NCBI RefSeq assembly: GCF_900105685.1
Contig: NZ_LT629781.1
Coordinates: 1,116,001 to 1,180,000, forward strand
DNA from: Verrucomicrobium sp. GAS474
GTDB lineage: Bacteria > Verrucomicrobiota > Verrucomicrobiia > Methylacidiphilales > GAS474
DNA length: 64,000 nucleotides
Reading direction: 5' to 3'
Below the pieces are notes generated by a model, which made no database searches, had not been told where the DNA came from, and worked only from the letters and a program-made list of their open reading frames with translations. The position numbers and the translations under genes were made by a program. Shown one piece after another: positions 1 to 38,894 of this stretch (the stretch's first letter is position 1; every line of letters begins with the position of its first letter).

Positions 1-1792
1 CACGATAGGGGTTGCCTCCGAAGAGGGTGGTGCCCACCGGAGGCCGGTAGACGTCGTTCCCGTGGGCGTATTTGTAGGGGAGGCTCTTTTGTCCGATGGC
101 GTTTCCCCCGGGAGTGAGGATGAAGCTCGGATAGTTGTCGGAGCTGTATTGGCCGAGGATGTTGGCGGCGATGTTGAAGACCTGGTAGTCGGGCACCTGG
201 TTGTAGGGTTGCGCGGGGACGGCGGTGTCGACCCGGAAGTGGAGGGCGGTGCTGTCGGCCCCCCAGGCGACGGTGATGGCGTTTTTTTCGCCGTCGGAGC
301 AGAGGCCGAGGGAGCCGCTGAGGATGCCCGCCTTGAGGAGCTCGAAGAAGTCGGGCTGCCGTTTCTTCGTCGCGACCTGCTGGAGGGTCAGGATCATGGA
401 GGGGGTGAGGCCGGCGCCGTCGGGCGAGGTGTAGACCCATTGTTCGCCGTGCTCGGTCGTCGGGCTGTAGGCGGTGGTGTCCCAGACGAGGCCGAAGTAT
501 TTCTTGATGTTCGTGTCGGTGCCGGTGGCGTTGTAGAGGGGATCGGCGACGGGGAGATTGGCGCTCGGCCCCTTGAAGGTGAGCCAGGCGAGGCGGTCGA
601 GGTCGAAGCGGCTCTGGATGAGGGCGGTGCCGTCGGTGGCGCGGAGGTTGGCCAGGTCCCGGTTCGCCGCGGAGGAGGTCTCCGCCAGGGAGGCGTAGTC
701 GATCGTGCTGTCGGTGGGTTTGGCCGGTTTCCAGCTCGGGGAGTTTTTCTCGCGGGAGAAGCTGGTGAGGAAGGGAAGCGCGTTGGTGATGCCGTTGGCG
801 ACGGCGTAGTGGATCAGGTCTTGCCGGCTGAGGAAGGCCTGGTTTCCGGGGGCCGGGGTGATGAAGCCGTTCGTCGACCCGAGCTGGATGAGGTAGGAGC
901 TGTAATTGGTGACCACGCCCGAGGTGCGCCACTTCACGAGGGCATCGACCTGGGCCTGCGTCAGGTTGCCGATCCCGACGAGGGGTACCGTGGCGAGGGA
1001 TCCCTTGCGGGCGATGTCGGAGGCGGTGAGCGGGGTTTGGGAGCCGTAGCCCGCCACGTTGGCGTCGAGGAGGCCGCCGATGTCGTAGACGGTGTAGGCG
1101 TAGCGCCCGACGACGTAGCTGGAGTTGCCCGCGGTGCTGTTGGTGAGGGAGCCGAAGGGAACGGCCGGCGCGTTGGTCAACGGTCCCTGGCGGGTGACGG
1201 GAACCCAGTCCGGCGCACGCATGAGGGCGTTTTCCGCGGACGTCAGCAGGGAGGGGCGCTGCCAGCGGGCGAGGGAAATGTAGCGGCCGTTGACGGAGGG
1301 GTTCAGGGAGCTGTCTCCGACGTAGGAGCGGATCGGGCCGGCAAACTGGTAGCGCGCGCCCGACCAGAGGTTGCTTCCGCCGAGGCTTTCCTTGATCAGG
1401 TTGGTGAGGCCGGCCGCGACCACCGCCTGAGGGAGCATGTTCAGGTTGGTCGTCGGGAGATAGACCGGCGTTCCCGCCGTCCCCGCGGTTTCGGTCGATC
1501 CGGCGCGGATCTCGTCCCGAAGGTCGCCGAGGATGGTCTGCAAGGCGGTGACCGCCAGGAGATCGGCCCGTTCCTGTCCCGAGCTGGCGAAGGAAATCTG
1601 GCGATTCGCCGCCGCCTGGCCGAAAAACGACATGATGAGGACCGAGACGAGCGCCAGCAGGGAGAGGACGAGGACGAGCGCCATCGACCGGTCGGCGCGG
1701 CCGCATCGATGCCAAGCCTCCGTCGCCCCGGAACGGGGAGCGGGCCCCGGGTGCCGGAGGGGCCTGCAAGGTCTATTGGGCGAGAGTGACAT
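1..1792 (-). CDS. Verru_Chthon cassette protein A-like, partial (C-terminus off left edge)
   Basis: The minus strand stays open from an ATG at 1792 to the window edge, about 597 residues. After a basic N-terminus there is one hydrophobic segment (about residues 37-58, ALVLVLSLLALVSVLIMSFF) followed by a long Ser/Thr/Asn-rich exported-type region with many tyrosines and short repeats of polar residues. Size, the single N-terminal membrane anchor and position directly after a C-type gene fit protein A of the four-gene Verru_Chthon pilin-like cassette known from Verrucomicrobium and Chthoniobacter. Its start lies inside the end of the C gene (20-base overlap), so the two are probably translationally coupled. 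The role is unknown; a minor component of a type II/IV pilus-like machine is an inference. The C-terminal part is not visible. Confidence 0.7.
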   Translation of the reverse strand, partial: MSLSPNRPCRPLRHPGPAPRSGATEAWHRCGRADRSMALVLVLSLLALVSVLIMSFFGQAAANRQISFASSGQERADLLAVTALQTILGDLRDEIRAGSTETAGTAGTPVYLPTTNLNMLPQAVVAAGLTNLIKESLGGSNLWSGARYQFAGPIRSYVGDSSLNPSVNGRYISLARWQRPSLLTSAENALMRAPDWVPVTRQGPLTNAPAVPFGSLTNSTAGNSSYVVGRYAYTVYDIGGLLDANVAGYGSQTPLTASDIARKGSLATVPLVGIGNLTQAQVDALVKWRTSGVVTNYSSYLIQLGSTNGFITPAPGNQAFLSRQDLIHYAVANGITNALPFLTSFSREKNSPSWKPAKPTDSTIDYASLAETSSAANRDLANLRATDGTALIQSRFDLDRLAWLTFKGPSANLPVADPLYNATGTDTNIKKYFGLVWDTTAYSPTTEHGEQWVYTSPDGAGLTPSMILTLQQVATKKRQPDFFELLKAGILSGSLGLCSDGEKNAITVAWGADSTALHFRVDTAVPAQPYNQVPDYQVFNIAANILGQYSSDNYPSFILTPGGNAIGQKSLPYKYAHGNDVYRPPVGTTLFGGNPYR

Positions 1793-2603
1793 AAAAATAC
1801 CGCTCCGCCACCCGGACCGACTGCGCCAGGAAGAGTGGGATTCCGGCACCCTCGGCGAATCCGGAACGATTCAGGGCCGAATCCCATAGCACCCCGGGGT
1901 CGGGGGCTCCGTCGGTGGGGTCGGGGAGCGCTTTGACGAGGGCCTGGAGCTGGGCGGAGGTGGCCTGCCGCCGCGCGGTGTCGTCGATCACCGCGACGGA
2001 GACGAGGACGGCCGTCAGGTTGGTGAGGGTGGTGACGGGATTCGGGGAGGGATTGGCGAGGAGGCCCGCCTTGCTCGATCCCGGCGGAGAGAGGACGCAG
2101 ATCTCGAAACGGATGACGCCTTGGGCCAGGGCCTGGTAGCGGGTGGCGGGGATGGCGGGAACGGTGGCCAGCGGAAACGAGACGGCGTTGTCCCCCGTCC
2201 AATTGCATCCGTATGCCGCGCGCTCCAGGCGGAAATCGTCATGCGCCTCCGGCACCGACGGATTGACCCGGTAGCCGATCGCCGTCACCTGCCGGGTGCT
2301 GGAGAGGGCCGTGACTTGGCTGAGGAAGGAGATGGCGTCGTTGCCGGGCTGCTTGAGGATGTTCACGGCGACGTCGGGCCGGGCCAGGCGGGCGTTCCAG
2401 TCGAGGCCGAAGAGATCGAGTGCCTGCCGGGCCTGGGAGAGGGCGTCGATGCGGCGGCTGTCGCCGAGCGTCGCCCGGGAGGTCGCCGTCATCACCTGGA
2501 CGGCGAGGAGCATGATCACGACGAGCGCCGAGGTGGCCACCAATACTTCGAGGAGGGTGAACGAGGCCGTCGCCTCCGTGCGGAGAGGTCGCCGTTCCTT
2601 CAT
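1773..2603 (-). CDS. Verru_Chthon cassette protein C-like pseudopilin
   Basis: A 276-residue protein with a class III (prepilin) signal: a basic leader, then SFTLLEVLVATSALVVIMLL, where cleavage is expected before Phe and Glu is the +5 residue. The hydrophobic helix is followed by a globular domain that contains Cys residues and ends with a Tyr-rich strand. This is the layout of Verru_Chthon cassette protein C. The start codon overlaps the stop of the B gene (ATGA, 4 bases) and the gene runs into the A gene, so B-C-A is one transcription unit. Known for the family: prepilin peptidase processing. Inferred: assembly into a pseudopilus-like fibre at the inner membrane. Confidence 0.8.
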   Translation of the reverse strand: MKERRPLRTEATASFTLLEVLVATSALVVIMLLAVQVMTATSRATLGDSRRIDALSQARQALDLFGLDWNARLARPDVAVNILKQPGNDAISFLSQVTALSSTRQVTAIGYRVNPSVPEAHDDFRLERAAYGCNWTGDNAVSFPLATVPAIPATRYQALAQGVIRFEICVLSPPGSSKAGLLANPSPNPVTTLTNLTAVLVSVAVIDDTARRQATSAQLQALVKALPDPTDGAPDPGVLWDSALNRSGFAEGAGIPLFLAQSVRVAERYFYVTLAQ

Positions 2604-3061
2604 CGCGAGGGGAGCGCCGCCGTCGCCTCCACTTTGCCGTTCGGTGTCGCCGCCTGGGCAGGCCAGGAAACCGTCACCGCCACGTAGTAGGGGGCGAACG
2701 AGCTGGAGGACGAGGGCGGGGTGACGCGGTAGGCGACCCGGTAGCGGCTGTCGGCCTTGTTGGCAATGGCTCCGTCGGCCCCGACCCAGAGGACGTCGCT
2801 CACGACCTTGCCCGGGCTAAGGGCGGGGAGCTTGAAAACGGGGGTCTGGTTCGTTGTGAGGCCGACGGCTTTCCAGTCGGCGATCATCGTCCCGATGATG
2901 TTCACCGAAGTCGATTCCTGCCGCGTATCGCTGTTCGTCCTCAAGCCGAGGGGGATGAGTGCGATCAGCATCAGGATCGCGAAAGCGAGGACGCCCAGGG
3001 ACATCATGATCTCGACCATGAAGAAAGCCGGGGCGGAGGAAGGGCGACGGGATGGATTCAT
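2600..3061 (-). CDS. Verru_Chthon cassette protein B-like pseudopilin
   Basis: About 153 residues from the ATG at 3061, chosen because it places a normal short basic leader (MNPSRRPSSAPA) before the prepilin helix FFMVEIMMSLGVLAFAILML. The open frame goes on upstream to 3115, but that extension looks unlike a leader. Ala rather than Gly precedes the cleavage site and Glu is at +5. A small Val/Ser/Pro-rich domain follows. It is the first gene of the B-C-A cassette. The fourth cassette member (D) is not seen upstream, so it is either absent here or lies beyond the left edge. Two palindromes like those before other operons of this region lie 174 and 253 bases upstream. Confidence 0.75.
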   Translation of the reverse strand: MNPSRRPSSAPAFFMVEIMMSLGVLAFAILMLIALIPLGLRTNSDTRQESTSVNIIGTMIADWKAVGLTTNQTPVFKLPALSPGKVVSDVLWVGADGAIANKADSRYRVAYRVTPPSSSSSFAPYYVAVTVSWPAQAATPNGKVEATAALPSR

Positions 3062-3234
3062 GGGAGTTCGACTTGAACCGGAACTCCGGGATGCCTGATC
3101 GCATCGGACGTCCATTGTCCCTCAATGTAGCGTTGAGCGTGTTGACGATCAATCTTTCCGCGCTCGAAAGGCGAGCCAACGGGATTGTGAGGAAAATCTT
3201 TCATTTATCCAAACCAAGCTTATGGCCATCGAAA

Positions 3235-3250
3235 TCTGCATACAAGTATA
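3235..3250. promoter_or_regulatory. Candidate operator, shared palindrome copy 1
   Basis: TCTGCATACAAGTATA matches the working consensus TCTGCTTATAAGCAGA at 12 of 16 positions and the copy at 38879 at 14 of 16. It lies 174 bases upstream of the pilin-like B gene on the minus strand. Confidence 0.4.
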
Positions 3251-3313
3251 TTATAAGAATCGATATTTCTCAAATTTTATCTTTAAATTTTGAAAATCTC
3301 CAAAGTCATAACT

Positions 3314-3329
3314 TCTGCTTATAAGCTAA
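3314..3329. promoter_or_regulatory. Candidate operator, shared palindrome copy 2
   Basis: TCTGCTTATAAGCTAA matches the consensus TCTGCTTATAAGCAGA at 14 of 16 positions. It lies 253 bases upstream of the pilin-like B gene, in the only sizeable gap before the cassette. Confidence 0.55.
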
Positions 3330-3392
3330 ATGATTTCGATCATTCTTCGCAAGCACCCGCTAGACTTCTCCTGAGGCTTCAGAGAAGAGTTC

Positions 3393-3433
3393 GGGAGGGA
3401 CTCCTGTCGCTGCAGGACAGGTCGGTCCCTCCC
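3393..3433 (-). terminator. Hairpin terminator after the beta-propeller gene
   Basis: GGGAGGGAC (3393-3401) pairs with GTCCCTCCC (3425-3433), and inside it CCTGTC (3403-3408) pairs with GACAGG (3416-3421). The hairpin begins about ten bases after the stop codon of the minus-strand gene. There is no long T-run, so it may also act as an mRNA-stabilising structure. Confidence 0.6.
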
Positions 3434-3443
3434 GCAAGCCTCA

Positions 3444-6400
3444 TCAATGCCCCACGATCTGCACGTTGCCGATCGTCGTGGTGGCCACGGCCGAGCTGTT
3501 GCTGTTCGAGGCGACAGGGAAGCCGATGATCGTCTCCGCTCCCATCGGGATCGTCTGGCTGCTCATCAGGGTCCAGGTCGTCCCGTCCGTTCCGCAGGAA
3601 GTGGTGAAGACGTTTCCCGCCCGCACCAGCTTGTACCAGGTCGGCGGTCCGGCGACGAGGGAGTACGTCCCGAGGGCGGCTCCCGTGGCGGTCCGGTATT
3701 GGGCGATGCGCCGATTGTCGAGGAGGGTGGTGCCGACGCCGTCGATGAACATGGCGTTCGTCGCCATGGAATCGCGCATCATGATCCCCGAGTAGGCGTT
3801 CTGGACGCTGCACGTGAGAGTGTTCAATTGCGCGATGAGGGTGCCATCCCCCGTCATCCCCCGGTGGACGTAATAGAAGGCGTCGGCGGTGGTGCGGCAG
3901 CCGAGGCCGGAGCCGGTGAGCGTGAAGGTGCCCGTGGAGGCGTTGTAGCTCGTGGTGCCCGCGACCGGCACCGTCCCCACGGTATCCGCCGTCCAGGGAT
4001 TCCAACGGTAAATGAGGCATTTCTCCTCCTCGTCTTCCTCGACGAAGATGAGGTACTCCCCGTTGGCCCTCTGGTGGACGGTGACGGCGTTATTGATGTC
4101 GATATTGCCCGAGGCGTTGCCGACCTCCGGCCCCGGGGTCAGCACGGCGACGGAGGAGCCCGTCGTGGCGTTGTAGAGGTAGGTCGGATGACTGGCGAGG
4201 GAGCCCCCCCAGACCGTCGCGGCGAGGAGGTTGCCCTTCACGTCGAAGGCCCTTACCCCGTCGCTCGACGCGGTCCCCGCGCCGCCCGGCTGGGGGAAGG
4301 GGAGGACGATCCGGTAGGCGATCGTCCGCGTGGCGCCCCAGTTGTTGTAACGGATGAGTTCCGTCCCGGCGTAGCCCCAGCTCTGGCCGGTGGGCCGGGG
4401 GTGGGTCGTCGTGTAGCCGCCGAGGTACATCGTGTCGGTCGCGGGGACGTAATGGACGCGGAGGACGTAGGGGGCGGTGAATTCGGCGGGGAGGGCGTAT
4501 TGGGTGTTGTTGGCGCTCGACCACGTTGGGTTGCCGTTGGCGTCGAGGGTCATCTTGAAGCGCCAGATCTTGGCCGCCTGCTGCACGCCGCCGACGTTGT
4601 TGTTCTGCCCGCCGATCGTCCAGACGTCGCCGTTGTCGTCGATGCTCCAATCGAAGATCTCCCCGGAGGGGACGCCGAGGGGAAGTCCGGCGGTGTCTTG
4701 GACGTCGCCGGTGTTGGCCTGTCCGTCGAGATTGGAATCGACCCAGATGGAGAGGGTGTTCGGCGTGCCGCCCCGATTGGTCTCCCGGATGAAGGAGGCG
4801 TAAGGCACGGTCACTTCGCTGCCGCTTTGGAAGCGGAAGACGTGGAGTGTCGATCCCTGGGGATCCTCCGAGACGAGGTACTTCTTTCCATTGATGACCC
4901 GCACCGCCGCGCCGCCCAGGGAGCGCGTGCGGGAGAGGCGGGCATCGCCGGGATAGGCGAAGTTGTTGACCAGCGTTCCCTTGAGGGTCCAGCCCAGGCC
5001 CTGGGCCTTGCTGTAGTCCATGGTGTAGTGGTGGTTCTTCGTATAGACGTCGACGCCGTCGGTGGTCGGGTCGGCGGCGGCGCAGTCGACGCCCTCCGTC
5101 CCCAGGCGTTCCCACAGGAGAGTCGCGGCGCTGGCGGTGGTGGTCGAATTGTACTTCCGCAGCACCAGCCCCGAGGATCCGTGGCCGTAGGCATCCGCGT
5201 ACCAGATCGTGTCCGGGCCGTTGCAGGCCACGTAGAGATTGCCGCTGCCGTCGATGGCGATCCCCCTGGGGTGGTCGAGCTTGCCGGGATTGACCTGCCC
5301 GGCGACGGTCCCGTTGACGGTGCTGTAGACCCCGTACTGGGCGCCGAAGCTCCGCAGGAAGGCCCCGCCCGAGGTGAAGACCTGGATCTGCTGGTTCACC
5401 CCGTTGTCGGCCACGTAGATGTTGCCCGAGGGATCGATGGCGATCCCCTTCGGATCGGCCAGGCCGGGATTGCCCGCGCCGGTCAGGGTCAGGTTGCCGA
5501 GGAGGGCTCCGGCCGTGGTGTAGTGGCCGATCCGCGGCGTCGCTCCCGTGAAGACGATCCACAGGTTGCCGGAGGAATCGGCAGCCATGTCGTGGGCCCC
5601 GGCCGGGATATTGAAATTGAGCGCGGGGGTCTCCGTCTTGCTGCTCAGGCTGATGACGTGGACCGTGACCACGCCCGTCGTGGCGTTGAGGGTGTTGACC
5701 GAGTCGATGGCGTAGAGGTTGCCGCCGGAGATGGCCACGCCGGTGATCGTCGGCCCCGTCGTGCTCGTCGTGAGGACGGAGCCGACGAAGGTCCCGTCGG
5801 GCTTGTAGTAGGCCACGCCGCCGCGCCCCGCATTGGTGGAGAAGGGGGCCTGCGCCACCCAGACGTAGCTGTTGGCGCTGTCCCAGACGACGGAGTTGGA
5901 GCCGTTGAAGTGGGACCCGTTCGCCGCCGCCGTCCAATTGCCGTTGGTGTCGTAGAACGTCGTGGCCACGTCCTCGCTCGACCCGTTCACGAAGAGGGCT
6001 CCGGTCGCCGGGTTCACCCCGAGGCCTTCCCCGTGGTATTGGACGCACCGCTGGCCGCCCGCATAGGTGTTGCCGAGCCACGAGGTCTCCGTGCTGATGA
6101 CGAGGGGGGCGAGGGAGACGTTGTCGTAGGTCACCGTGTTGAAGCCGCTGGTGCTGCGGGAGGTCGCCGTGAGGCCGATGCAGACCGTCGCGGCGAGGTT
6201 GGGCAGCGCCCGGTTGCAGCCGATGGCCGGAGTCCAGGTCGCGCCGTCGGTGGAGAAGAAGAGGGCGATCATGTCCCCGTCCCGCTGGAGCTTCAGCCAC
6301 AGGGGATAGCCCGACGGGGAGTAGGCGTTGAGGCGCGACGTCCCCCCTCCCGAGACGACGCGGGACTGGGAGTAGACCGAGGGGCCGCCGGGCTGCACGT

Positions 6401-6746
6401 AGATCATCTCCTCGCGCGCGCCCGCCGTCAGGGCCTCCCGGATCATGATGCCGTCGGGGGCTCCGGTGTTGACGTTCGTTCCGGAGTTCCCCGTGACCCG
6501 GGTGATGAAGGTGAAGTTGCCCGTGACGCTTTGATAGGCGTAATGGAAGGCGTCGGCGTTCCCGTTGATGTCGGCCCCGCTTCCGCTGACGGTGAAGACG
6601 CCGCCGCTGTAGCTGGCGCTTCCCGCCGTGGTCACGGTGCCGATGTCCTGGTCGCTCCACCCGGCGGGCAAGGCCGCCTCCGCTCGCGGAAGAACGACAT
6701 TGAAAAGGGTTACGAGAACGATCAGGGCACGCATGGGAATCTTCAT
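3444..6746 (-). CDS. Exported beta-propeller (NHL-like) protein flanked by two related lectin-like domains
   Basis: 1100 residues from the ATG at 6746, chosen over an upstream in-frame ATG because AAGGAGG lies just before it and a clean signal peptide follows (MKIPMRALIVLVTLFNVVLPRAEA). Residues of about 28-215 resemble a concanavalin-like DUF1349-type domain (ADAFHYAYQSVTGNFTFITR, DGIMIRE). The middle (about 215-900) carries NHL-like repeats such as DPKGIAIDPSGNIYVADNG and HPRGIAIDGSGNLYVACNG, so a propeller is likely. The last about 190 residues repeat the first domain (ADAFYYVHRGMTGDG, YSGIMMRD). No catalytic motif is evident. A role in binding or sensing glycan at the cell surface is an inference. 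A candidate operator lies 50 bases upstream. Confidence 0.8.
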   Translation of the reverse strand: MKIPMRALIVLVTLFNVVLPRAEAALPAGWSDQDIGTVTTAGSASYSGGVFTVSGSGADINGNADAFHYAYQSVTGNFTFITRVTGNSGTNVNTGAPDGIMIREALTAGAREEMIYVQPGGPSVYSQSRVVSGGGTSRLNAYSPSGYPLWLKLQRDGDMIALFFSTDGATWTPAIGCNRALPNLAATVCIGLTATSRSTSGFNTVTYDNVSLAPLVISTETSWLGNTYAGGQRCVQYHGEGLGVNPATGALFVNGSSEDVATTFYDTNGNWTAAANGSHFNGSNSVVWDSANSYVWVAQAPFSTNAGRGGVAYYKPDGTFVGSVLTTSTTGPTITGVAISGGNLYAIDSVNTLNATTGVVTVHVISLSSKTETPALNFNIPAGAHDMAADSSGNLWIVFTGATPRIGHYTTAGALLGNLTLTGAGNPGLADPKGIAIDPSGNIYVADNGVNQQIQVFTSGGAFLRSFGAQYGVYSTVNGTVAGQVNPGKLDHPRGIAIDGSGNLYVACNGPDTIWYADAYGHGSSGLVLRKYNSTTTASAATLLWERLGTEGVDCAAADPTTDGVDVYTKNHHYTMDYSKAQGLGWTLKGTLVNNFAYPGDARLSRTRSLGGAAVRVINGKKYLVSEDPQGSTLHVFRFQSGSEVTVPYASFIRETNRGGTPNTLSIWVDSNLDGQANTGDVQDTAGLPLGVPSGEIFDWSIDDNGDVWTIGGQNNNVGGVQQAAKIWRFKMTLDANGNPTWSSANNTQYALPAEFTAPYVLRVHYVPATDTMYLGGYTTTHPRPTGQSWGYAGTELIRYNNWGATRTIAYRIVLPFPQPGGAGTASSDGVRAFDVKGNLLAATVWGGSLASHPTYLYNATTGSSVAVLTPGPEVGNASGNIDINNAVTVHQRANGEYLIFVEEDEEEKCLIYRWNPWTADTVGTVPVAGTTSYNASTGTFTLTGSGLGCRTTADAFYYVHRGMTGDGTLIAQLNTLTCSVQNAYSGIMMRDSMATNAMFIDGVGTTLLDNRRIAQYRTATGAALGTYSLVAGPPTWYKLVRAGNVFTTSCGTDGTTWTLMSSQTIPMGAETIIGFPVASNSNSSAVATTTIGNVQIVGH

Positions 6747-6795: not shown

Positions 6796-6811
6796 TGTAC
6801 ATATAAGCAGC
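6796..6811. promoter_or_regulatory. Candidate operator, shared palindrome copy 3
   Basis: TGTACATATAAGCAGC matches the consensus at 12 of 16 positions, with a perfect right half TATAAGCAG. It is centred about 57 bases before the start of the minus-strand propeller gene. A possible -10 box (TACAAT on the minus strand) overlaps it. Confidence 0.45.
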
Positions 6812-6988
6812 AAAAATGAGATTGGATTGCAACAAAAAACATTTAGAGAAATTCTTCAGGGCCTTTTAATTAATCATTCTAATTTCGTCTCTTTAGCGTA
6901 TTATAAGTGAAGATGGGATGCGTTTCCGGCTTTTCACGAAGGCAATCCATCTTCTCGATTTTTTTGTTGATCCGTTGAGAGAAAAAAA

Positions 6989-7004
6989 TCTGCTTATTAT
7001 CATG
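6989..7004. promoter_or_regulatory. Candidate operator, shared palindrome copy 4
   Basis: TCTGCTTATTATCATG has a perfect left half (TCTGCTTAT) and matches 12 of 16 consensus positions. It ends 14 bases before the first gene of the secretin operon. Confidence 0.4.
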
Positions 7005-7018
7005 AAATAAATGCGGGT

Positions 7019-7543
7019 ATGAAACCGAAACCATGCTCTCTTATCTCTATTGTTTGCCTCGTGCTGGGCGGAGCACCCCTCTTCGGGCAGGTCCTCCCGG
7101 ACAGGCAGGTTCTCCCTTCGGCGATCCCGCCTGAAAGATATCAGGCAATCTGGAGGCGCGCCCCCTTTTCCCCCCCTTCCCAACCCCCGGACGAGGGTCC
7201 TTCCTCCGAATGGGCTCTTTCCGGTTATCTGCGAAGCGGCGATCATTCCCTCGTCTTCCTCGTCGATCGGCAGACTCAGAAACACCTCGTCGTTACCGAG
7301 ACGCCGAATAGCGACGGCCTGGCGCTCTGCTCGATCGACGGCGGCCCCGATCTCCTTCATACGAGCGTCCGCGTCAAGGTCGCGGAAGAAATCGTAACCG
7401 TGAAGTTCGACCCCGATGCCGTCCTGGTCGCGGCGTCGGCCGACCCTGCGTCCGCCGCTTCCCCGCCGCCTCCGACCGTCTTCGCCCAGGTCTCCCTCGT
7501 CAGCCCTCCCTTCGTCCCGTCCGGCGACGCCCCTTCCCGATGA
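7019..7543 (+). CDS. Small exported protein preceding the secretin (GspC/PilP HR-like segment)
   Basis: 174 residues with an N-terminal signal (MKPKPCSLISIVCLVLGGAPLFGQ), a proline-rich linker and a segment WALSGYLRSGDHSLVFLVDR followed by a short strand-rich part. That segment recalls the HR/PilP region of GspC or PilP proteins, which bind the periplasmic end of secretins. The likeness is short and the assignment is inferred mainly from position: its stop codon overlaps the start of the secretin gene (ATGA). The C-terminus is rich in Ala, Ser and Pro. It could instead be an unrelated periplasmic partner. Confidence 0.6.
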   Translation: MKPKPCSLISIVCLVLGGAPLFGQVLPDRQVLPSAIPPERYQAIWRRAPFSPPSQPPDEGPSSEWALSGYLRSGDHSLVFLVDRQTQKHLVVTETPNSDGLALCSIDGGPDLLHTSVRVKVAEEIVTVKFDPDAVLVAASADPASAASPPPPTVFAQVSLVSPPFVPSGDAPSR

Positions 7544-9723
7544 AACGCTCCTTTCCCGGCCTCGGCCTGGCGGGGGCTCTCGTGGCCCTCTTCCTCGCCC
7601 CGGCTCTCGCGCCGGGCGCATCGGCCTCGCCGGAGCGCGAAGGCCCGGCCTGGAAGGCCCAGGACGAGGGGGCCGTCGTCGACATCCAGTTGCCCAACGC
7701 GCCGATCAACGACATCCTCTCCACCTATGAGGCCTTGACCGGGAAAACGCTGGTGCGGGATGCGAACCTCTCCGGCCCGAATCTCACGATCACTTCGGGC
7801 AGGAAGCTCACGAAAGGCCAGGCGATCCGCCTCATTGAAAGTGCTCTCCTTCTCAACGGCTACGCGCTCGTTCCCGGAACGGACGGAACCGTGAAAGTCG
7901 TGAACGGCGGAGGCGGAAAATCCCCGCGCAGCGAGGGAATCCCCGTCCTCGCCTCCGCCTCCGACCTGCCCGAGGGGGATCAGGTCGTCAGTCTCTACCT
8001 CCCGCTCCGCTTCGTCACTCCCGCCGACGCCTCCGCCATCCTCCAGGCCCACCTCACGCCCCATTCCTACGGTGCGATCGTCCAGGTGGCCGGTGCCCAG
8101 GCCCTCGTCGTCACCGAGAGCAGCCCGGTTCTCCGCGAGATCCTGAAGCTGAAGGACCTGATCGATGTCCCGCCCATCGAGATCCCCCCGCCGAAACTGA
8201 CCAAGGAATTCGTCCCCCTCCGCCGGGCCGACGCCGAAAAGGTGGCCGACACGCTGAACAAGCTTCTCGAAGCCCAGAAAAAGGCGGCCTCCGCGGCCGG
8301 ATCCCCACCCGCGCAGGGCCAGCCCAATGCCGGCCTTCACGGCGGCAACCTCCTGGTCCTCGGCGATGTCCAGCTCGTCGCCGACGGGCGGACGAACCGC
8401 ATCCTGGTCATCACCCGCCCGGCCAACTTTCCTCTCATCAAGGAGCTCATCGAGCAGTTCGACCAGAGCGTCGAGATCGAAGCTCCCTACATCCGCTCCC
8501 TCAAGTACGTCTCCGCCCTCGATGTCCTGACTGTCCTGCAGCGGTTCCTCGTCGAGTCGAAGGACGAGGTCTCCGGCATCGCCGAGGCCGGGGGCAAGGC
8601 CGCCGGCGCCAAGCCGGTTCCCGGTCCGGCGAGCCGTCCCGGCTCCTCCCCCACCGGCATGCAGGAGCGTCTCGACGAGCAGGCGGACGAGCAGCCCCCG
8701 CAGGAAATCACCGTCGGAAAAACCCGCCTCATCGCCGACAACAAGACCAACACCCTCCTCGTCTTCGGCCCGCCGGACAGCGTCTCTCGCGCGCGCACGA
8801 TCATCGACAACCTCGACATCCGCCCGAGGCAGGTCTATCTCGCCACGGTCGTCGGCAAGCTCAGCCTCACGAATTCCTCCGAGTTGAGCGTCGATCTCCT
8901 GCAGAATTTTCACTCCCTTTCGGGCAACGTGGGCGCCGCCGCTTCGTCGCAAAACAGCACCCTCGCCGCCCGCTCCGATCCCCGGTCCCTCGCCGCGGCC
9001 CTCGCCTTCCCCGCCGGGACGGGGCTCGCTTTCTACGGCGCCGTCGGCAATACGCTCAACGCCTACGTCAAGGCGCTCGAAAGCACCGGCCGCTTCACCA
9101 TCCTCTCCCGTCCCTCCGTCTACACCGCGAACAACAAGAAGGCGTCGATCTCGTCCGGCCAGCAGGTGCCCATTCCGCAAAGCACCCTCAGCTCCCTCGA
9201 CTCGGCCACGGCCAACAACGTCGCGCAGTCCTCGACCATCGAGTACAAGGACGTCGAGCTCCTGCTCGAGGTGATCCCCCTCATCAATTCGGAGCGCGAG
9301 GTGACGCTCCGGATCTCCCAGCAGAACAGCACCATCTCCGGAAGCTCGACGATCTCGGGCAACACGGTCCCGATCATCTCGAAGGACGCCCTCGAGACGA
9401 CCGTGACGACGCCCAACCGGAGTACCGTCATCCTCGGCGGACTGATCAAGGACTCCGACCAGGCGAGCCGCTCGGGCGTCCCGCTGCTGAAGGACATCCC
9501 TTTCCTCGGCGCCCTCTTCCGCAGCGATACCAAGAACCGGGAGCGCGACGAGCTCGTCATCCTCATCCAGCCGACCGTCGTCGAGACCGACGAGGATCTG
9601 GCCCGCGCCCAGGCCGAGGAAAAAAGCCGCGCCACCCTCGGCGAGGCCGCTGAACGTTATGCCGCCAAGCCCGCCTCCGCCGTCACCGGCAAGTCGACCG
9701 CGCTCGAATCCCTCACCCATTGA
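7540..9723 (+). CDS. gspD: Type II secretion/type IV pilus-like secretin
   Basis: 727 residues. A signal peptide is followed by an N0-like domain (VVDIQLPNAPINDILSTYEALTGK), several N1/N2-type repeats (for example LRFVTPADASAILQAHL, FVPLRRADAEKVADTLNKLL, NRILVITRPANFPLIKELIE) and the C-terminal pore domain (from about residue 420) ending in the secretin signature VPLLKDIPFLGALFRS and DELVILIQPTVV. The family forms outer-membrane rings that release folded proteins or pili. Neighbours are a small periplasmic protein (overlapping) and an acetylesterase 12 bases downstream; no ATPase or inner-membrane platform gene is near, so those must be shared from elsewhere. The operon carries the local operator, which suggests substrate-controlled expression. 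Confidence 0.92.
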   Translation: MKRSFPGLGLAGALVALFLAPALAPGASASPEREGPAWKAQDEGAVVDIQLPNAPINDILSTYEALTGKTLVRDANLSGPNLTITSGRKLTKGQAIRLIESALLLNGYALVPGTDGTVKVVNGGGGKSPRSEGIPVLASASDLPEGDQVVSLYLPLRFVTPADASAILQAHLTPHSYGAIVQVAGAQALVVTESSPVLREILKLKDLIDVPPIEIPPPKLTKEFVPLRRADAEKVADTLNKLLEAQKKAASAAGSPPAQGQPNAGLHGGNLLVLGDVQLVADGRTNRILVITRPANFPLIKELIEQFDQSVEIEAPYIRSLKYVSALDVLTVLQRFLVESKDEVSGIAEAGGKAAGAKPVPGPASRPGSSPTGMQERLDEQADEQPPQEITVGKTRLIADNKTNTLLVFGPPDSVSRARTIIDNLDIRPRQVYLATVVGKLSLTNSSELSVDLLQNFHSLSGNVGAAASSQNSTLAARSDPRSLAAALAFPAGTGLAFYGAVGNTLNAYVKALESTGRFTILSRPSVYTANNKKASISSGQQVPIPQSTLSSLDSATANNVAQSSTIEYKDVELLLEVIPLINSEREVTLRISQQNSTISGSSTISGNTVPIISKDALETTVTTPNRSTVILGGLIKDSDQASRSGVPLLKDIPFLGALFRSDTKNRERDELVILIQPTVVETDEDLARAQAEEKSRATLGEAAERYAAKPASAVTGKSTALESLTH

Positions 9724-9735
9724 CCGACACCTCCC

Positions 9736-11484
9736 GTGATCTTTCTCTTCCGCCTTCTCCTCCTCGCCCTCCTGCCGCCCCTTGCCCCCGCCTTCGCCGA
9801 GGTGAGGATGCCCGCGCTCTTTGGCGATCACATGGTCCTCCAGCGCGGGGCGGACGTTCCCGTCTGGGGAACCGCCGAACCGGGCGAGGCCGTCACCGTC
9901 ACCGCCGGAGCGGGCCCTGCCGCCGTCACGGCGCGGGCGACGGCCGGGCCCGACGGGAAGTGGATCGCCACTCTCGACCGGCTTCCCGCCTCGGAGCAGC
10001 CGATCGACCTCGTCGTCGCGGGGGGAAACACCCTCGCCTTCCACGATGTCCTCGTCGGCGACGTCTGGGTCTGTTCCGGCCAATCGAACATGGAATTCGG
10101 CATCACCATGACCCCCGTGCCCGCCGACCTGGCTCCCGCCGCCGATCCCGGACTCCGCCTCTTCTCCGTTCCGAAACGGGTTTCTCCCCAGGTCGAGAGA
10201 GAGATCGGCCCGGCCCCGCCGAACTTCCCCCTCCTGGCGACGTGGCAGGTCTGCACGCCCGAAACACTGGGAAAGACAGGGGAGTGGGGGGGATTCTCGG
10301 CCATCGGCTACTACTTCGGACGGGAACTCCGCGCCTTCACCAGGCAGCCCGTCGGCATCATCGGGACCTATTGGGGCGGGACCCGCATTCAAGCGTGGAC
10401 CAGCCTCGAGATGCTCCAGTCGCTGCCCGAGAAGGCGGGCGCGGCCAAGGCGGGCGCGAACTTCCGGGACAACTACGCCCAGATCAAGGAGGCCTACGAG
10501 ACCGTCGCCCTTCCCGAGTACAAGGCGGCACTTGAAAAATGGACCCAGGAGAACAAGGCGGCCCTCGACGCCTATCCCGAAACGATGCGGCAGTGGCAGG
10601 CCGCGGCGAAGGAGGCCTCCGCCAAGGGGGAACCCGCCCCGCCCCGCCCGATCGAGCCCAAGCCCCCGAAGCCGCCGCGCGACATGGCCCATGACAACAG
10701 CAATTCGAGCGCCCTCTTCAACGGCATGATCGCCCCGCTGATCCCCTGCGCGATCAAGGGGGTCCTCTGGTACCAGGGCGAATCGAACAGCGACGAACCC
10801 CTTCTCTACCGCGTCGAGCTTCCCGCCTTGATCCGCGACTGGCGCGCCCGCTGGGGCGGGGGGGATTTCCCGTTCCTCGTGGTCCAGCTCCCGAACTTCG
10901 ACGCCCGTCCCGCCCAGCCTGCCGACGCGAACTGGGCCGTGATGCGCGAGTCCCAGGCCCATGCCGCCGCCATCCTTCCCTCCGTCGGCTGCGTCGTCAC
11001 CATCGACGTGGGGGACGCGCGGAACCTCCATCCGGGAGACAAGGCCGACGTGGGGAGGCGGGCCGCCGGTCTGGCCCGTCACGTGGCTTACGGGGAGCCG
11101 GAAGGGCCGTACACCGGCCCAGTTTACAGGAATGCGAACGTCGAAGGGAGCGCCATCCGGATCGGGTTCGACAAGGCGAGTCTCGGTGCCGGCCTCGCCC
11201 TCGCCAACCCGCCCGCTCCCTTCTACGCCGCCCAGCGGCAGGCGCCTCCCGCGGTACCGCCGACGGTGCTCAAGGGATTCTCCATCGCGGGTGACGACAA
11301 CCGGTTCGTGGAAGCCTCCGCGAGGATCGACGGCGATACGGTCGTCGTCTCGTCCGACGGCGTTCCGGTTCCCGTCGCGGTCCGCTACGCCTGGGCCAAC
11401 AGTCCGGAGTGCAATCTTTACAACAAGGAGGGTTACCCCGCCGCCCCGTTCCGCACCGACGCGCTCCCGCTTCCCGGCAAATGA
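9736..11484 (+). CDS. Exported sialate O-acetylesterase-like (SASA family) enzyme
   Basis: 582 residues from a GTG start that places a signal peptide first (MIFLFRLLLLALLPPLAPAFA). An N-terminal beta domain (RMPALFGDHMVLQRG, VPVWGTAEPGE) precedes the SGNH-type hydrolase. The nucleophile motif SGQSNMEF lies near residue 116, VLWYQGESNSDE near 345, and the Asp-His pair in DVGDARNLHPGDK near 426. These are the hallmarks of the SASA/DUF303 family, which removes acetyl groups from sugars such as sialic acid or from acetylated xylan; the true substrate cannot be told. It sits in an operon with the secretin, so it may be a secreted substrate or a periplasmic partner. A Lys/Glu/Pro-rich insert lies at about residues 260-315. 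Confidence 0.9.
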   Translation: MIFLFRLLLLALLPPLAPAFAEVRMPALFGDHMVLQRGADVPVWGTAEPGEAVTVTAGAGPAAVTARATAGPDGKWIATLDRLPASEQPIDLVVAGGNTLAFHDVLVGDVWVCSGQSNMEFGITMTPVPADLAPAADPGLRLFSVPKRVSPQVEREIGPAPPNFPLLATWQVCTPETLGKTGEWGGFSAIGYYFGRELRAFTRQPVGIIGTYWGGTRIQAWTSLEMLQSLPEKAGAAKAGANFRDNYAQIKEAYETVALPEYKAALEKWTQENKAALDAYPETMRQWQAAAKEASAKGEPAPPRPIEPKPPKPPRDMAHDNSNSSALFNGMIAPLIPCAIKGVLWYQGESNSDEPLLYRVELPALIRDWRARWGGGDFPFLVVQLPNFDARPAQPADANWAVMRESQAHAAAILPSVGCVVTIDVGDARNLHPGDKADVGRRAAGLARHVAYGEPEGPYTGPVYRNANVEGSAIRIGFDKASLGAGLALANPPAPFYAAQRQAPPAVPPTVLKGFSIAGDDNRFVEASARIDGDTVVVSSDGVPVPVAVRYAWANSPECNLYNKEGYPAAPFRTDALPLPGK

Positions 11485-11495
11485 CCGCGGCGCGC

Positions 11496-11525
11496 GGTTC
11501 GGTTGTTTTCCGGGGAGAACCTTTT
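11496..11525 (+). terminator. Possible terminator between convergent operons
   Basis: GGTTC (11496-11500) pairs with GAACC (11517-11521) and is followed by TTTT. The stem is short. It lies between the acetylesterase stop and the end of the convergent minus-strand gene. Confidence 0.35.
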
Positions 11526-16356: not shown

Positions 16357-16372
16357 TCTGCTTATACTCATT
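16357..16372. promoter_or_regulatory. Candidate operator, shared palindrome copy 5
   Basis: TCTGCTTATACTCATT has a perfect left half and matches 12 of 16 consensus positions. It lies 16 bases upstream of the chosen start of the PEP-CTERM gene. Confidence 0.4.
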
Positions 16373-16534: not shown

Positions 16535-16550
16535 AATGCATATATGCAGA
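16535..16550. promoter_or_regulatory. Candidate operator, shared palindrome copy 6
   Basis: The core TGCATATATGCA (16537-16548) is a perfect 12-base palindrome; the 16-base site matches 12 consensus positions. It ends 11 bases before the start of the CBM9-like gene. Confidence 0.5.
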
Positions 16551-20497: not shown

Positions 20498-20526
20498 TTG
20501 CCATTTGGCAGCAACCCAATTATTTT
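20498..20526 (+). promoter_or_regulatory. Candidate promoter of the dehydrogenase/isomerase operon
   Basis: TTGCCA (20498-20503) and TATTTT (20521-20526) are 17 bases apart. The perfect palindrome 20522-20541 covers the -10 box and the expected start of transcription, a normal geometry for repression. Confidence 0.45.
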
Positions 20527-20541
20527 GCTTATAAGCAAAAT
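20522..20541. promoter_or_regulatory. Candidate operator, shared palindrome copy 7 (perfect)
   Basis: ATTTTGCTTATAAGCAAAAT is a perfect 20-base palindrome and the best-formed copy of the repeated site. A second, half-matching site (20591-20606, TATAAGCA half) lies just before the gene. Confidence 0.65.
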
Positions 20542-22537: not shown

Positions 22538-22570
22538 AGCCGGTTCTGCCCCCCAAGTGAGAACCGTCTC
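22537..22570. terminator. Bidirectional hairpin between convergent genes
   Basis: GAGCCGGTTCT (22537-22547) pairs with AGAACCGTCTC (22560-22570) with one mismatch. It fills the gap between the isomerase-like gene and the convergent regulator gene and may end both transcripts. Confidence 0.65.
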
Positions 22571-23715
22571 TAGCCGCGGGGAGCGGCCGTACTCTCGCGG
22601 ACGACGAGCTTCGGCGTCATGCGCACGTCGACCTTGTCGGCATCGGGCCCCCAAAGCAGGGTGATCGCCTTTTCGATCCGTTCCTGGGGAGAGAAGGTCA
22701 TTTCGGTCAGGGGCACGGGAAGAATGTCGGCGTTCTCGATGGCGTCGAAGGAGAGGAGGGAAATGTCTTCGGGTACCCGGATGCCATGGCGCATCGCGTA
22801 CCGCAGGACGGCCCAGGCCCCGACGCCGGAGAGGGGCGCGACGGCGGTGGGCCATTCGCGGCGGTCGCTGCCCGGGCCGAAGATCTCGTCGGCTTTCCGG
22901 TAGGCGGCATCGTAGGAACTGTCCCAGTTCTGGGTCTGGCACGAGACGACGCGGGCGTGGCGCAGACCCCGTTCTTCGATCTTGCGGTGGACGAGCTGGG
23001 AGCGAAGACTGGTGATGAGAAGGATTTCGGGCTCGTTCACCATGAAGAGAATGCGCTCGTGGCCGAGCCCGGTCAGGTGATCGATCACCTGGTCGACCTC
23101 GGTTTCGTAATCGGGCATGATCGTGCCGCAGGCGAGGCCGGGGATTTTCGGCCCGAGGACGATGTGCTGGTACCCTTCCATGCGGAGGTGGGAGCTGAGG
23201 GCGAGGGTCAGGTCGACCGTGAGGCCGGCGATCAGGAGCCGCTCCTGGCTGGGCGGGTATTTGATCGACCGGATGAGGTCGTTGAGGCGGTCGTTCCGAT
23301 GGAGGTAGTGGGGATCGAGGAGGCATCCCTGCTCCCGGCAGACGGTGTATTCGATGCCCAGGCTGTTGCGGCTCAGCTCGGGGAGGATGAAGCCGACATG
23401 GCGGGTCTCGGTCTTGCGCTGGACGAAGAAGCCGCGGCGGGGTTCGGGCAGGAGGTAGCCCTCGGCCACCAGGTCGTTCAAGGCGCGCCGGATCGTCGGC
23501 TGGGAAACGGCGAGCTTTTCGATCAGCTCCCGTTCCGAGTGGAAACGCTGGCCGTGTTCGAATCCGTTCAGGATTCGCTCGCGCAGAATCTGCCGCACCT
23601 TGGCATGAAGCGGCTGCTTAAGCTCATCTGCCGCCAGAGTAAGATAAGGATTATCAGGGGTTAACATAAAAGCAGCATTCACTTTACCATATCGAAAAGT
23701 GGGAGGAGCGTCCAT
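22570..23715 (-). CDS. GntR-type DNA-binding domain fused to LacI-type sugar sensor (AraR-like architecture)
   Basis: 381 residues. Residues about 35-100 are a GntR winged helix (LHAKVRQILRERILNG, SERELIEKLAVSQPTIRRAL, LVAEGYLLPEPRRGFFV). The rest is a periplasmic-binding-protein-like effector domain of the LacI/GalR type, with HVGFILPEL, AVAPLSGVGAWAVLRYAMRHG and IRVPEDISLLSFDAIENADILP. This layout is that of AraR-like repressors that leave DNA when a sugar binds. A start at 23667 would shorten the N-terminus by 16 residues. A near-perfect copy of the shared palindrome lies 23 bases upstream of its start, suggesting autoregulation. It is the best candidate to control the operators of this region, though binding has not been shown. 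Confidence 0.9.
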   Translation of the reverse strand: MDAPPTFRYGKVNAAFMLTPDNPYLTLAADELKQPLHAKVRQILRERILNGFEHGQRFHSERELIEKLAVSQPTIRRALNDLVAEGYLLPEPRRGFFVQRKTETRHVGFILPELSRNSLGIEYTVCREQGCLLDPHYLHRNDRLNDLIRSIKYPPSQERLLIAGLTVDLTLALSSHLRMEGYQHIVLGPKIPGLACGTIMPDYETEVDQVIDHLTGLGHERILFMVNEPEILLITSLRSQLVHRKIEERGLRHARVVSCQTQNWDSSYDAAYRKADEIFGPGSDRREWPTAVAPLSGVGAWAVLRYAMRHGIRVPEDISLLSFDAIENADILPVPLTEMTFSPQERIEKAITLLWGPDADKVDVRMTPKLVVRESTAAPRG

Positions 23716-23737: not shown

Positions 23738-23753
23738 TATGCTTATATGCACA
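23738..23753. promoter_or_regulatory. Candidate operator, shared palindrome copy 8, at the regulator gene
   Basis: TATGCTTATATGCACA matches the consensus at 13 of 16 positions. It lies between the regulator gene (minus strand) and the large exported protein gene (plus strand) and could control both. Confidence 0.55.
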
Positions 23754-34508: not shown

Positions 34509-36713
34509 CTAGGGAGTCCCGAGAACCTCGACGTTCCGGATGCCGTCGAAGAGGTAGACGCTCCACGCCGCCGCCTCGACCGGCCCCGCTTCCAGCGCGC
34601 GCCCGGTCAGGACTTCTTTCCCGGCGTCGGCCCCGTCCGCTTCCGAGAGGGCGAGCCTTGCGGGGGCGAAGGTCCAGACGACGGTTTTCCCGTCGCCGTG
34701 ATAGACGACGCCGCATTCGTCCCGCAGGACCCGGCGCCGCTCCATGTGGGGTTGGACGACGTTGTAGGCGCGGAGTCGGGCCAGCTGCCCTTCGGTGGGC
34801 GCGTAGGCGGCCTCCCCTGCCTTTCCCTGGATCCAGGTCAAGCGATCGGCCTGCGGATCCCACTGGAGTTTCCACACGACCCGGTAGGCGAGGGCGCGGA
34901 AGAAGAAGCCCTCGGGGTCGGCCCCGAGGCGGGCGATTTCGACGGGATCGAAGTCGGGCAGGCAGTCGACCCACAGGGGAAGGCTGGCGACGAGGTTGGA
35001 GAGGGGACCCGAAGCGCGGTGGACGCCGAAGACGCCGATGTCTTCCCCGCAGTAGACGTATCCCATCCGTTGCATCTCGGCCATGAGGGAGAGGTGGGCG
35101 CGGTATTGGGAGAGGATCGCGGGGAGGGGTTCCCGCTCCGGCCGGGAGTGGCCGAGGAGCTGCGTCTGGTCGGCCGTCGCCCCGTGGCGGGCCGACGCGG
35201 GGCGGGCGATCCAATGGAACTTGTCGCTCGACATGTTGAAGCTGCTGTCGAGGAAGATCCCCCCGAGGCCGAGCCGTTCCCGGGCGTCGCGCCACCGTTC
35301 CAGCCAGACGCGGCGGACGGTCTCGTCGCGGAGGTTCATGACGGCGAAGACCGGTGTGTAGTGATCGGCCTCGATGGCGTTCGAGGGATTGCGCACCCAC
35401 GGATCGGCCGCGTCGTCGAGGGCGTCGAAAAGTGTCGGCCCGGTCCGGGGAAAGCGGAGGCGCTCTTCCCGCCCGTTGCGCGCGTGGGCCATCAGGGCGA
35501 GGGTGGAGAGGGCGGTGTTGCCCCACATCTCGACCGACGCGTCCGCCTCCCGCGCCTCCCGGCAGAAGGCGGCGAGGTTCTCCTCGCCGACGCCGGGGGC
35601 GACCTTCAGGTCGGCGGTGCAGCACATGTTGCTGACGCCGAAGACGTTCATGTTATTCTCGAAATGGTTGGCCAGGAAGATCGTACGGACCCCGGCCTGC
35701 TTCAGCCGGGGCAGGCCCTTGGCGGCGTAATGCCGGAGGTCGGCGTTGCCCCACTCTTCCATGACGCCGTAGCTGGCGGCCCGCTCGATGCGGAGCCCCG
35801 CGTCGGCGTGGAGGGTTTCCGAAACCAGCGCGCGGACGCGTTCGTATAAGTTCAGCTGTTCGACGGGGTTCCTTTTTCCCGGGAACCAGAGGACTTCGAT
35901 CGGAGCCGTGGAGAAGGCGAGGGAGAGGTCGCCGCAAAGCTCGTAAAGATGGGCGAGGTGGCTTGCGCCCCGGGGCTTCTCGAAGAGCGCCCGGACATGG
36001 GACGCGACCGGCACCCAGGTGACGAGGACGCCCTCCTCCCCCGCGGTGAAGGTGAAGCCGCAGAGGGCGGTCTGGAACGGGAGGAATTCAAAGATGTTCG
36101 GGTTGACGGCGGAGGGCAGGAACCACTCGGTGCAGTAGGCGTCCTGGGGGGAATGGAAACGCTGGATCGAGGGGGAGAACGCGTTGCGCAGCCAGAATGC
36201 GTTGCCCTCGATGGCCCCGCCCGGTTCCCAGGTCGCCCGGTCGAGGATTTTGTAGAGGGCGATGGCGTCGCTCTTGTAGTGGTAGCGATAGGAAAAGCCG
36301 ACGCCCCGGTCGCCATCCAGGACGATCTCGGCGGGCCGAAGTTCGAGGTCGAGCGCGGTGTTTTCGGCGCGGCGCGGGGGCTGGGACCAGGCCCCGCGGC
36401 GATAGCGCGGGCGGACGGCGTGGAGCATCCACTCCATGGGGCCGTCGTCCGCGCGGGACGCGCCGAGGCTCAGGCGGAAGCCGCCTTCCTCCGTGGGGCC
36501 GGACGCCTCGACCTGGAAATCTCCGAGGCGGATCGCGTCGGGGCTGCGAAGCTCGGGGAGGATGGGGAGCGCGGGCGAGCGCATGGCGACGCCTTCGATG
36601 GTGACACGGCCCAATCCGAGGAAGCGGCGGCCCTCGCCGAGGAACTCGACGCGGGTGGCGTTGCCGATGGGCTGGAACGTCCCTTCGGGTGCGGGGGAGG
36701 CGGGCGGATTCAT
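34509..36713 (-). CDS. Putative TIM-barrel glycosidase of unrecognised family
   Basis: 734 residues from the ATG at 36713, which overlaps the stop of the GH65 gene (ATGA). No signal peptide. An N-terminal beta-sandwich (about 1-300) leads to an apparent TIM barrel: ASYGVMEEWGNADLRHYAAKG, VRTIFLANHFENN, then RERLGLGGIFLDSSFN (Asp in the place of a barrel nucleophile) and MGYVYCGEDIGVFGVHR (possible acid/base). A short beta domain closes the protein. The shape recalls clan GH-D (GH36/GH27) or GH31 enzymes, but I cannot assign it. Co-expression with GH65 and the ADP-ribosylglycohydrolase-like protein points to intracellular processing of imported oligosaccharides. Confidence 0.65.
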   Translation of the reverse strand: MNPPASPAPEGTFQPIGNATRVEFLGEGRRFLGLGRVTIEGVAMRSPALPILPELRSPDAIRLGDFQVEASGPTEEGGFRLSLGASRADDGPMEWMLHAVRPRYRRGAWSQPPRRAENTALDLELRPAEIVLDGDRGVGFSYRYHYKSDAIALYKILDRATWEPGGAIEGNAFWLRNAFSPSIQRFHSPQDAYCTEWFLPSAVNPNIFEFLPFQTALCGFTFTAGEEGVLVTWVPVASHVRALFEKPRGASHLAHLYELCGDLSLAFSTAPIEVLWFPGKRNPVEQLNLYERVRALVSETLHADAGLRIERAASYGVMEEWGNADLRHYAAKGLPRLKQAGVRTIFLANHFENNMNVFGVSNMCCTADLKVAPGVGEENLAAFCREAREADASVEMWGNTALSTLALMAHARNGREERLRFPRTGPTLFDALDDAADPWVRNPSNAIEADHYTPVFAVMNLRDETVRRVWLERWRDARERLGLGGIFLDSSFNMSSDKFHWIARPASARHGATADQTQLLGHSRPEREPLPAILSQYRAHLSLMAEMQRMGYVYCGEDIGVFGVHRASGPLSNLVASLPLWVDCLPDFDPVEIARLGADPEGFFFRALAYRVVWKLQWDPQADRLTWIQGKAGEAAYAPTEGQLARLRAYNVVQPHMERRRVLRDECGVVYHGDGKTVVWTFAPARLALSEADGADAGKEVLTGRALEAGPVEAAAWSVYLFDGIRNVEVLGTP

Positions 36714-38878: not shown

Positions 38879-38894
38879 TCTGCATACAAGCAGA
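38879..38894. promoter_or_regulatory. Candidate operator, shared palindrome copy 10
   Basis: TCTGCATACAAGCAGA matches the consensus at 14 of 16 positions, with perfect TCTGC/GCAGA arms. It is 43 bases upstream of the GH65 start, inside the gap after the ADP-ribosylglycohydrolase-like gene, so the GH65 gene probably has its own promoter. Confidence 0.6.

Follow-up and report, generated by a model that had tools for sequence, protein, structure and literature searches.

The stretch of DNA analyzed here (the window; 64,000 nt of Verrucomicrobium sp. GAS474 contig NZ_LT629781.1, positions 1,116,001-1,180,000; coordinates below are window-based unless stated) contains three consecutive forward-strand ORFs, the first two overlapping by 4 bases and the last two separated by a 12-base gap, which encode a GspC-like protein, a secretin, and an esterase (Table 1). 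The esterase matches PF03629 (SASA) and, as read by eye, has a signal-peptide-like N terminus and the motifs GQSNM and DARNLHP. No GspE or GspF was found near the window, matches to PF00437 and PF00482 above the curated cut-off occurring in the genome only at 1.70, 2.09, and 3.07 Mb, and the set of GspE, GspF, GspL, and GspM in one locus by which a complete type II secretion system (T2SS) is recognized is absent from the window.

Table 1. Coordinates of the secretin operon, the operator sites, and neighboring features in the window
Feature	Position	Strand	Remarks
Pseudopilin-like, giant GspK-like protein, N-terminal part, Verru_Chthon A-related	2-1684	-	full 1074 aa, extends left past the window edge (L050:4461-7685)
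Pseudopilin-like, Verru_Chthon C-related	1773-2603	-	
Pseudopilin-like, Verru_Chthon B-related	2600-3115	-	start may be 3019
Operator 5' of pseudopilin cassette	3237-3248	.	3 mismatches; overlaps predicted -10
Operator 5' of pseudopilin cassette	3316-3327	.	1 mismatch
Exported NHL-repeat/DUF1349 protein, divergent from secretin operon	3444-6746	-	profile matches
Operator TACATATAAGCA, 5' of divergent NHL gene	6798-6809	.	2 mismatches
Promoter-like TTGAGA-17-TATCAT, 5' of GspC-like ORF	6975-7003	+	consensus match only; -10 overlaps operator
Operator TGCTTATTATCA of secretin operon	6991-7002	.	2 mismatches to TGCTTATAAGCA
GspC-like protein	7019-7543	+	174 aa; ORF call, alignment, predicted fold
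GspD secretin, full length, duplicate of T2SS GspD	7540-9723	+	727 aa; profile matches, tree
Exported SASA-type acetylesterase, final operon gene	9736-11484	+	582 aa; PF03629 match
Terminator-like hairpin 3' of esterase	11483-11499	+	pattern only; hairpin number not above chance
Operators between PEP-CTERM protein gene and CBM9-like gene	16359-16370, 16537-16548	.	
Perfect operator TGCTTATAAGCA, 5' of oxidoreductase-like gene	20526-20537	.	sole exact genome copy
GntR HTH + periplasmic-binding-like regulator	22570-23598	-	candidate operator reader
Operator between regulator gene and divergent 23932-27726 gene (1264 aa)	23740-23751	.	1 mismatch
Operator 5' of GH65-family gene (36710-38587, -)	38881-38892	.	

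The 174-aa protein gave no sequence-family matches in Pfam or NCBIfam, and the GspC-like family, when compared by sequence with solved structures, returned no match, leaving fold comparison as the only informative approach. Its features are an N-terminal hydrophobic segment, an RYQAIWRRAPF motif, an HR-like domain, and a Pro-rich tail. The HR-like domain was predicted at residues about 62-140 with a pLDDT around 90. In fold comparison, the model (residues 60-137) best matched PilP and the GspC HR domain, the latter in the E. coli GspC-GspD complex (3oss_C; Foldseek probability 1.00; VIA Z 6.6); the Z-score is moderate, but the top nine fold rows comprise only GspC and PilP and lie above an unrelated remainder. 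Further, a protein with an RYxxLWxxSPF motif directly precedes gspD in the T2SS clusters of relatives, and the window gene occupies the same position. Gene order and predicted fold together indicate that the 174-aa protein is a GspC. We note that the window GspC, unlike most T2SS GspC-like copies, has no basic RR(R) motif at its C terminus, and docking to the same partners may therefore fail.

The secretin matches PF21305 (GspD N0), PF03958 (two stretches), and PF00263, and its closest solved relatives are GspDs. The match to TIGR02517 covers residues 51-688 and, at 324.6 bits, does not reach the curated cut-off of 351.35 bits; because the in-cluster T2SS GspD of the same genome (306.4 bits) also falls below it, this cut-off does not tell members apart in this lineage. 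A tree of 27 GspD sequences places the window GspD as sister to those of the T2SS in its own genome and in one same-genus genome with support of 100/100, and its end branch measures 0.51 compared with 0.56+0.19 on the sister side. It retains 55 of the 57 columns that are invariant in all other rows, and the C-terminal tails of the two copies are similar (KSTALESLTH and KATVLESITH). The tree indicates that the window GspD is an old duplication of the T2SS GspD in this genus lineage, without accelerated evolution, and, to judge from the conserved columns, it is not decaying. When 60 relatives were searched (46 with any match), a second GspD of the window type was seen only in this genome. A survey of 189 genomes of the class, in which at most 5 candidates per genome were scored so that rare similar arrangements may be missed, yielded second strong GspDs in six other genomes, none resembling the window arrangement: the second GspD lies in a further T2SS cluster or beside GspE/GspF (G068 and G070), is accompanied by GspL/M/C (G189), or occurs alone, with no GspC-like gene (G148, G152, and G164). 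The window gspC-gspD pair was seen in a single genome, from which its tie to a glycan locus is drawn, the family f1 being represented here by only three genomes. In one genus (g69), a GspD-like secretin that is syntenic among the genomes and has no GspC-like gene beside it (L134:9220-11433, L135:8889-11084, and L136:2749-5004) adjoins an unknown 446-471-aa protein and a HAD-like hydrolase.

Palindromes resembling TGCTTATAAGCA with up to 2 mismatches occur 22 times in the genome, and the reversed control occurs 20 times. Eight of the 22, among them the sole exact match and the two with 1 mismatch, fall within 3.3-38.9 kb of the window, a 36-kb stretch for which about 0.2 matches would be expected by proportion; shuffles gave an expectation of 0.32 for the window. 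All of these sites are intergenic, and the housekeeping T2SS region at 2.087-2.100 Mb contains none of the 22. We scored nine sites, i.e. these eight and the 3-mismatch site at 3237, in a held-out test that is only partly independent because the motif was learned from the window and the sites were chosen by their likeness to one consensus; the site at 6991, when withheld from the matrix, outscored all 202,784 background positions of the same genome, as did the other held-out sites, that at 6991 having the lowest score of the nine. The secretin operon and the pseudopilin cassette each have an operator that overlaps the predicted -10, which is the pattern expected for repression. These counts and scores indicate that the operator is real. 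An earlier note on this DNA had described a single unit of a small GspC/PilP-like protein, a complete secretin, and an exported esterase that is preceded by an operator of the glycan region and has no ATPase or platform genes beside it; the ORF spacing, profiles, and HR fold bear out the unit, the match upstream of the GspC-like ORF and the clustering of its kind in the window bear out the operator, for which the case is stronger than the note could tell, and the absence of PF00437 and PF00482 matches in or near the window agrees with the missing machine.

The pseudopilin-like genes to the left of the operon resemble the Verru_Chthon cassettes (TIGR02596, TIGR02598, TIGR02599, and TIGR02600) in their B-C-A order and prepilin-like N termini, and cassettes of this kind are, like that of the window, frequent in the glycan loci of this genome. 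The window cassette differs in that all its scores are below the TIGRFAM cut-offs (bits/cut-off: B, 26.5/51.4; C, 25.3/256.5; A, 14/332.3), in that it has no D (none was called in the 3020-3443 gap), and in that it alone among the cassettes read is accompanied by a secretin. Eight other pseudopilin places were read in the genome, and seven of them are cassettes, most of which adjoin regulators and sugar-degradation-like genes; none of the eight holds a secretin. The cassettes (L138 and L140-L145) are arranged B-C-A or D-B-C-A and come in two flavors, true Verru_Chthon-scoring and diverged, the latter being the kind found in the window; L138 passes the Verru_Chthon cut-offs for A, B, and D. The predicted structure of the giant cassette protein A had a mean pLDDT of 30 and was uninformative. 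In two same-genus genomes, SASA esterases are found near such cassettes. This implies that cassette and esterase are both usual components of the glycan loci of this lineage and that gspC-gspD is the unusual addition.

The genome is a single 3.76-Mb contig (99.9% complete). About 0.97 Mb from the window, at 2.087-2.100 Mb (L046), it contains a full T2SS cluster that comprises GspF, GspE, G, H, I, J, K, and GspM together with a GspC-like protein and a GspD of its own; by position, it probably also holds GspL. The order of the GspC-like protein and GspD and the protein families are the same in L046 and the window, and the proteins are closest relatives, but L046 has GspE, F, G-K, L, and M, and the basic motif is retained at the C terminus of its GspC. 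The type IV pilus genes lie in two places, 2.34 Mb, where two tandem pilus-type secretins are encoded (L047:5357-11068), and 3.07 Mb, where two tandem PilB-like ATPases and one PilC (the platform) are found (L048:6971-11623). A further stretch (L049:2300-6631; G000:C1 about 2872.3-2876.6 kb) has a lower GC content, a small exported coat-like protein, a weak PF00263 match, and, as read by eye, a Zot/gpI-like ATPase ORF, and resembles the prophage of a filamentous phage that carries a secretin of its own.

Because a full T2SS, complete with a secretin, is encoded elsewhere in the genome, the window pair is most likely accessory to that T2SS and not a stand-alone gate. Overall, we think it probable that the window encodes an accessory GspC-GspD pair for the general T2SS that was duplicated in the genus lineage and lies in a glycan locus under the operator of that locus. 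Gene content, duplication, conservation, and operator sharing are read in the sequence itself; the identity of the regulator, the induction, the assembly with the core, and the export of the esterase and other enzymes of the locus are what we infer. In the mechanism we propose, an inducing sugar would release the GntR/periplasmic-binding-like regulator from the palindromes, and derepression would lead to joint production of the secretin pair, the local pseudopilins (B, C, and A), and the glycan genes. The new secretin would then be placed in the outer membrane, and its GspC, via an N0-HR contact, would join the housekeeping GspE/F/L/M (and GspG). By analogy with the Pseudomonas aeruginosa pair discussed below, the window pair would most likely take the place of the housekeeping GspC-GspD on the common ATPase and platform when the sugar regulon is on, and the hybrid machine, possibly with the local pseudopilins, may export the enzymes of the locus. 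The pair may thus be a dedicated export gate that is installed only when the sugar is present. The earlier note had suggested a substrate-induced gate for the glycan-degrading enzymes, and this idea stands insofar as a GspC-GspD pair with no machine of its own lies in a glycan locus and has its operator in common with the cassette and the glycan genes; the notion of a self-sufficient gate has to be corrected in view of the T2SS at L046 and its secretin. That note had held that its proposal would fail if a full type II cluster elsewhere had its own secretin, which L046 does, and if the window secretin were not induced with the glycan genes, which is not what the sequence suggests.

The most literal form of that proposal would be a substrate-induced outer-membrane gate that functions with no inner-membrane motor. 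The locus has no motor genes, and the operator is common with the glycan locus, as such a gate would have it, but the secretin has retained its N0 domain and a GspC partner, which is what docking to a platform in the inner membrane would call for, and the genome encodes the full T2SS core. From established T2SS biology, the pair should not work alone without the core ATPase and platform. Secretins are gated pores, and motor-free export of folded enzymes through them is not known; we therefore regard a stand-alone gate as highly improbable. A motor could also be borrowed from the type IV pilus, so that the pair, the pilus ATPase and platform at 3.07 Mb, and the local pseudopilins would form a pilus-like secretion or surface-fiber device that does not use the T2SS core. 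PilB-like ATPases and a PilC are indeed present in the genome, and one same-genus genome (G001) with no GspD or GspE orthologue retains one pseudopilin cassette, a complete D-B-C-A set in a glycan-type locus (L162:7556-12960), which suggests that cassettes may not need a T2SS and argues against a simple T2SS role for each of them. We nevertheless consider this device improbable because the window secretin and its GspC are of the T2SS GspC-GspD lineage and the pilus locus encodes secretins itself.

Somewhat less improbable, although still unlikely in our judgment, is that a redundant T2SS paralogue landed in the glycan locus and is co-transcribed with the esterase with no dedicated role, only raising the number of secretins in the cell. 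This would be consistent with the absence of a dedicated ATPase nearby and with the secretin copies that other Verrucomicrobiota also have outside the main cluster, in other contexts; the long retention of the pair, its normal constraint, its deep divergence from the sister copy, and its place under a local operator speak against it.

The accessory pair that we favor has a counterpart in XphA/XqhA of P. aeruginosa, which, as far as it is described in PMC6567927 (citing Michel et al. 2007), is a GspCD pair encoded away from xcp, regulated by conditions, and used by the Xcp system in a hybrid machine. As in the window, a gspC-gspD pair lies apart from the full T2SS cluster with no other machine genes, and control apart from the core and a hybrid machine, as in that description, would be expected of the window pair, which is a C-D pair outside the T2SS cluster of a genome with a full T2SS. 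The two differ in that the window pair is of a separate lineage and belongs to a glycan regulon with an esterase, an adjoining pseudopilin cassette, and a local sugar-type operator. In Verruconatronum alginivorum, which like this genome has many pseudopilin paralogues and one T2SS, a pseudopilin is raised on alginate together with polysaccharide-degradation genes according to the account available to us in PMC13274419, and this makes glycan-induced pseudopilins credible; that account, unlike the window, reports no separate secretin pair. Searches of the literature on the Verru_Chthon cassette found nothing, and those on orphan secretins found only an unrelated neuropeptide paper. Some Verrucomicrobiota have tens of pseudopilin genes, many of them in sugar loci, for which there is no clear explanation, and a sugar locus that includes a secretin and a GspC, both under the operator of the locus, links such pseudopilins to type II secretion. 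More tentatively, and with rather less than even confidence, we propose that the T2SS of this bacterium could be modular and substrate-inducible: one housekeeping ATPase and platform would serve the separate pseudopilin cassettes of many sugar loci, and at least in the present locus the GspC-GspD gate would also be swapped under a common sugar-responsive repressor, changing both tip and gate to match the glycan. The locus allows a simple test of such per-substrate retooling of a secretion machine.

With respect to the wider surroundings, a xylose-isomerase-like barrel protein and an FGGY sugar kinase are encoded to the left of the window (L050). An orthologue of the neighboring 1264-aa glycan protein was not found in two same-genus genomes, to which we attach little weight. 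The right third of the window (41300-64000) falls to a GC content of ~50% and contains what look like surface-polysaccharide synthesis genes, forming a block distinct from the glycan locus.
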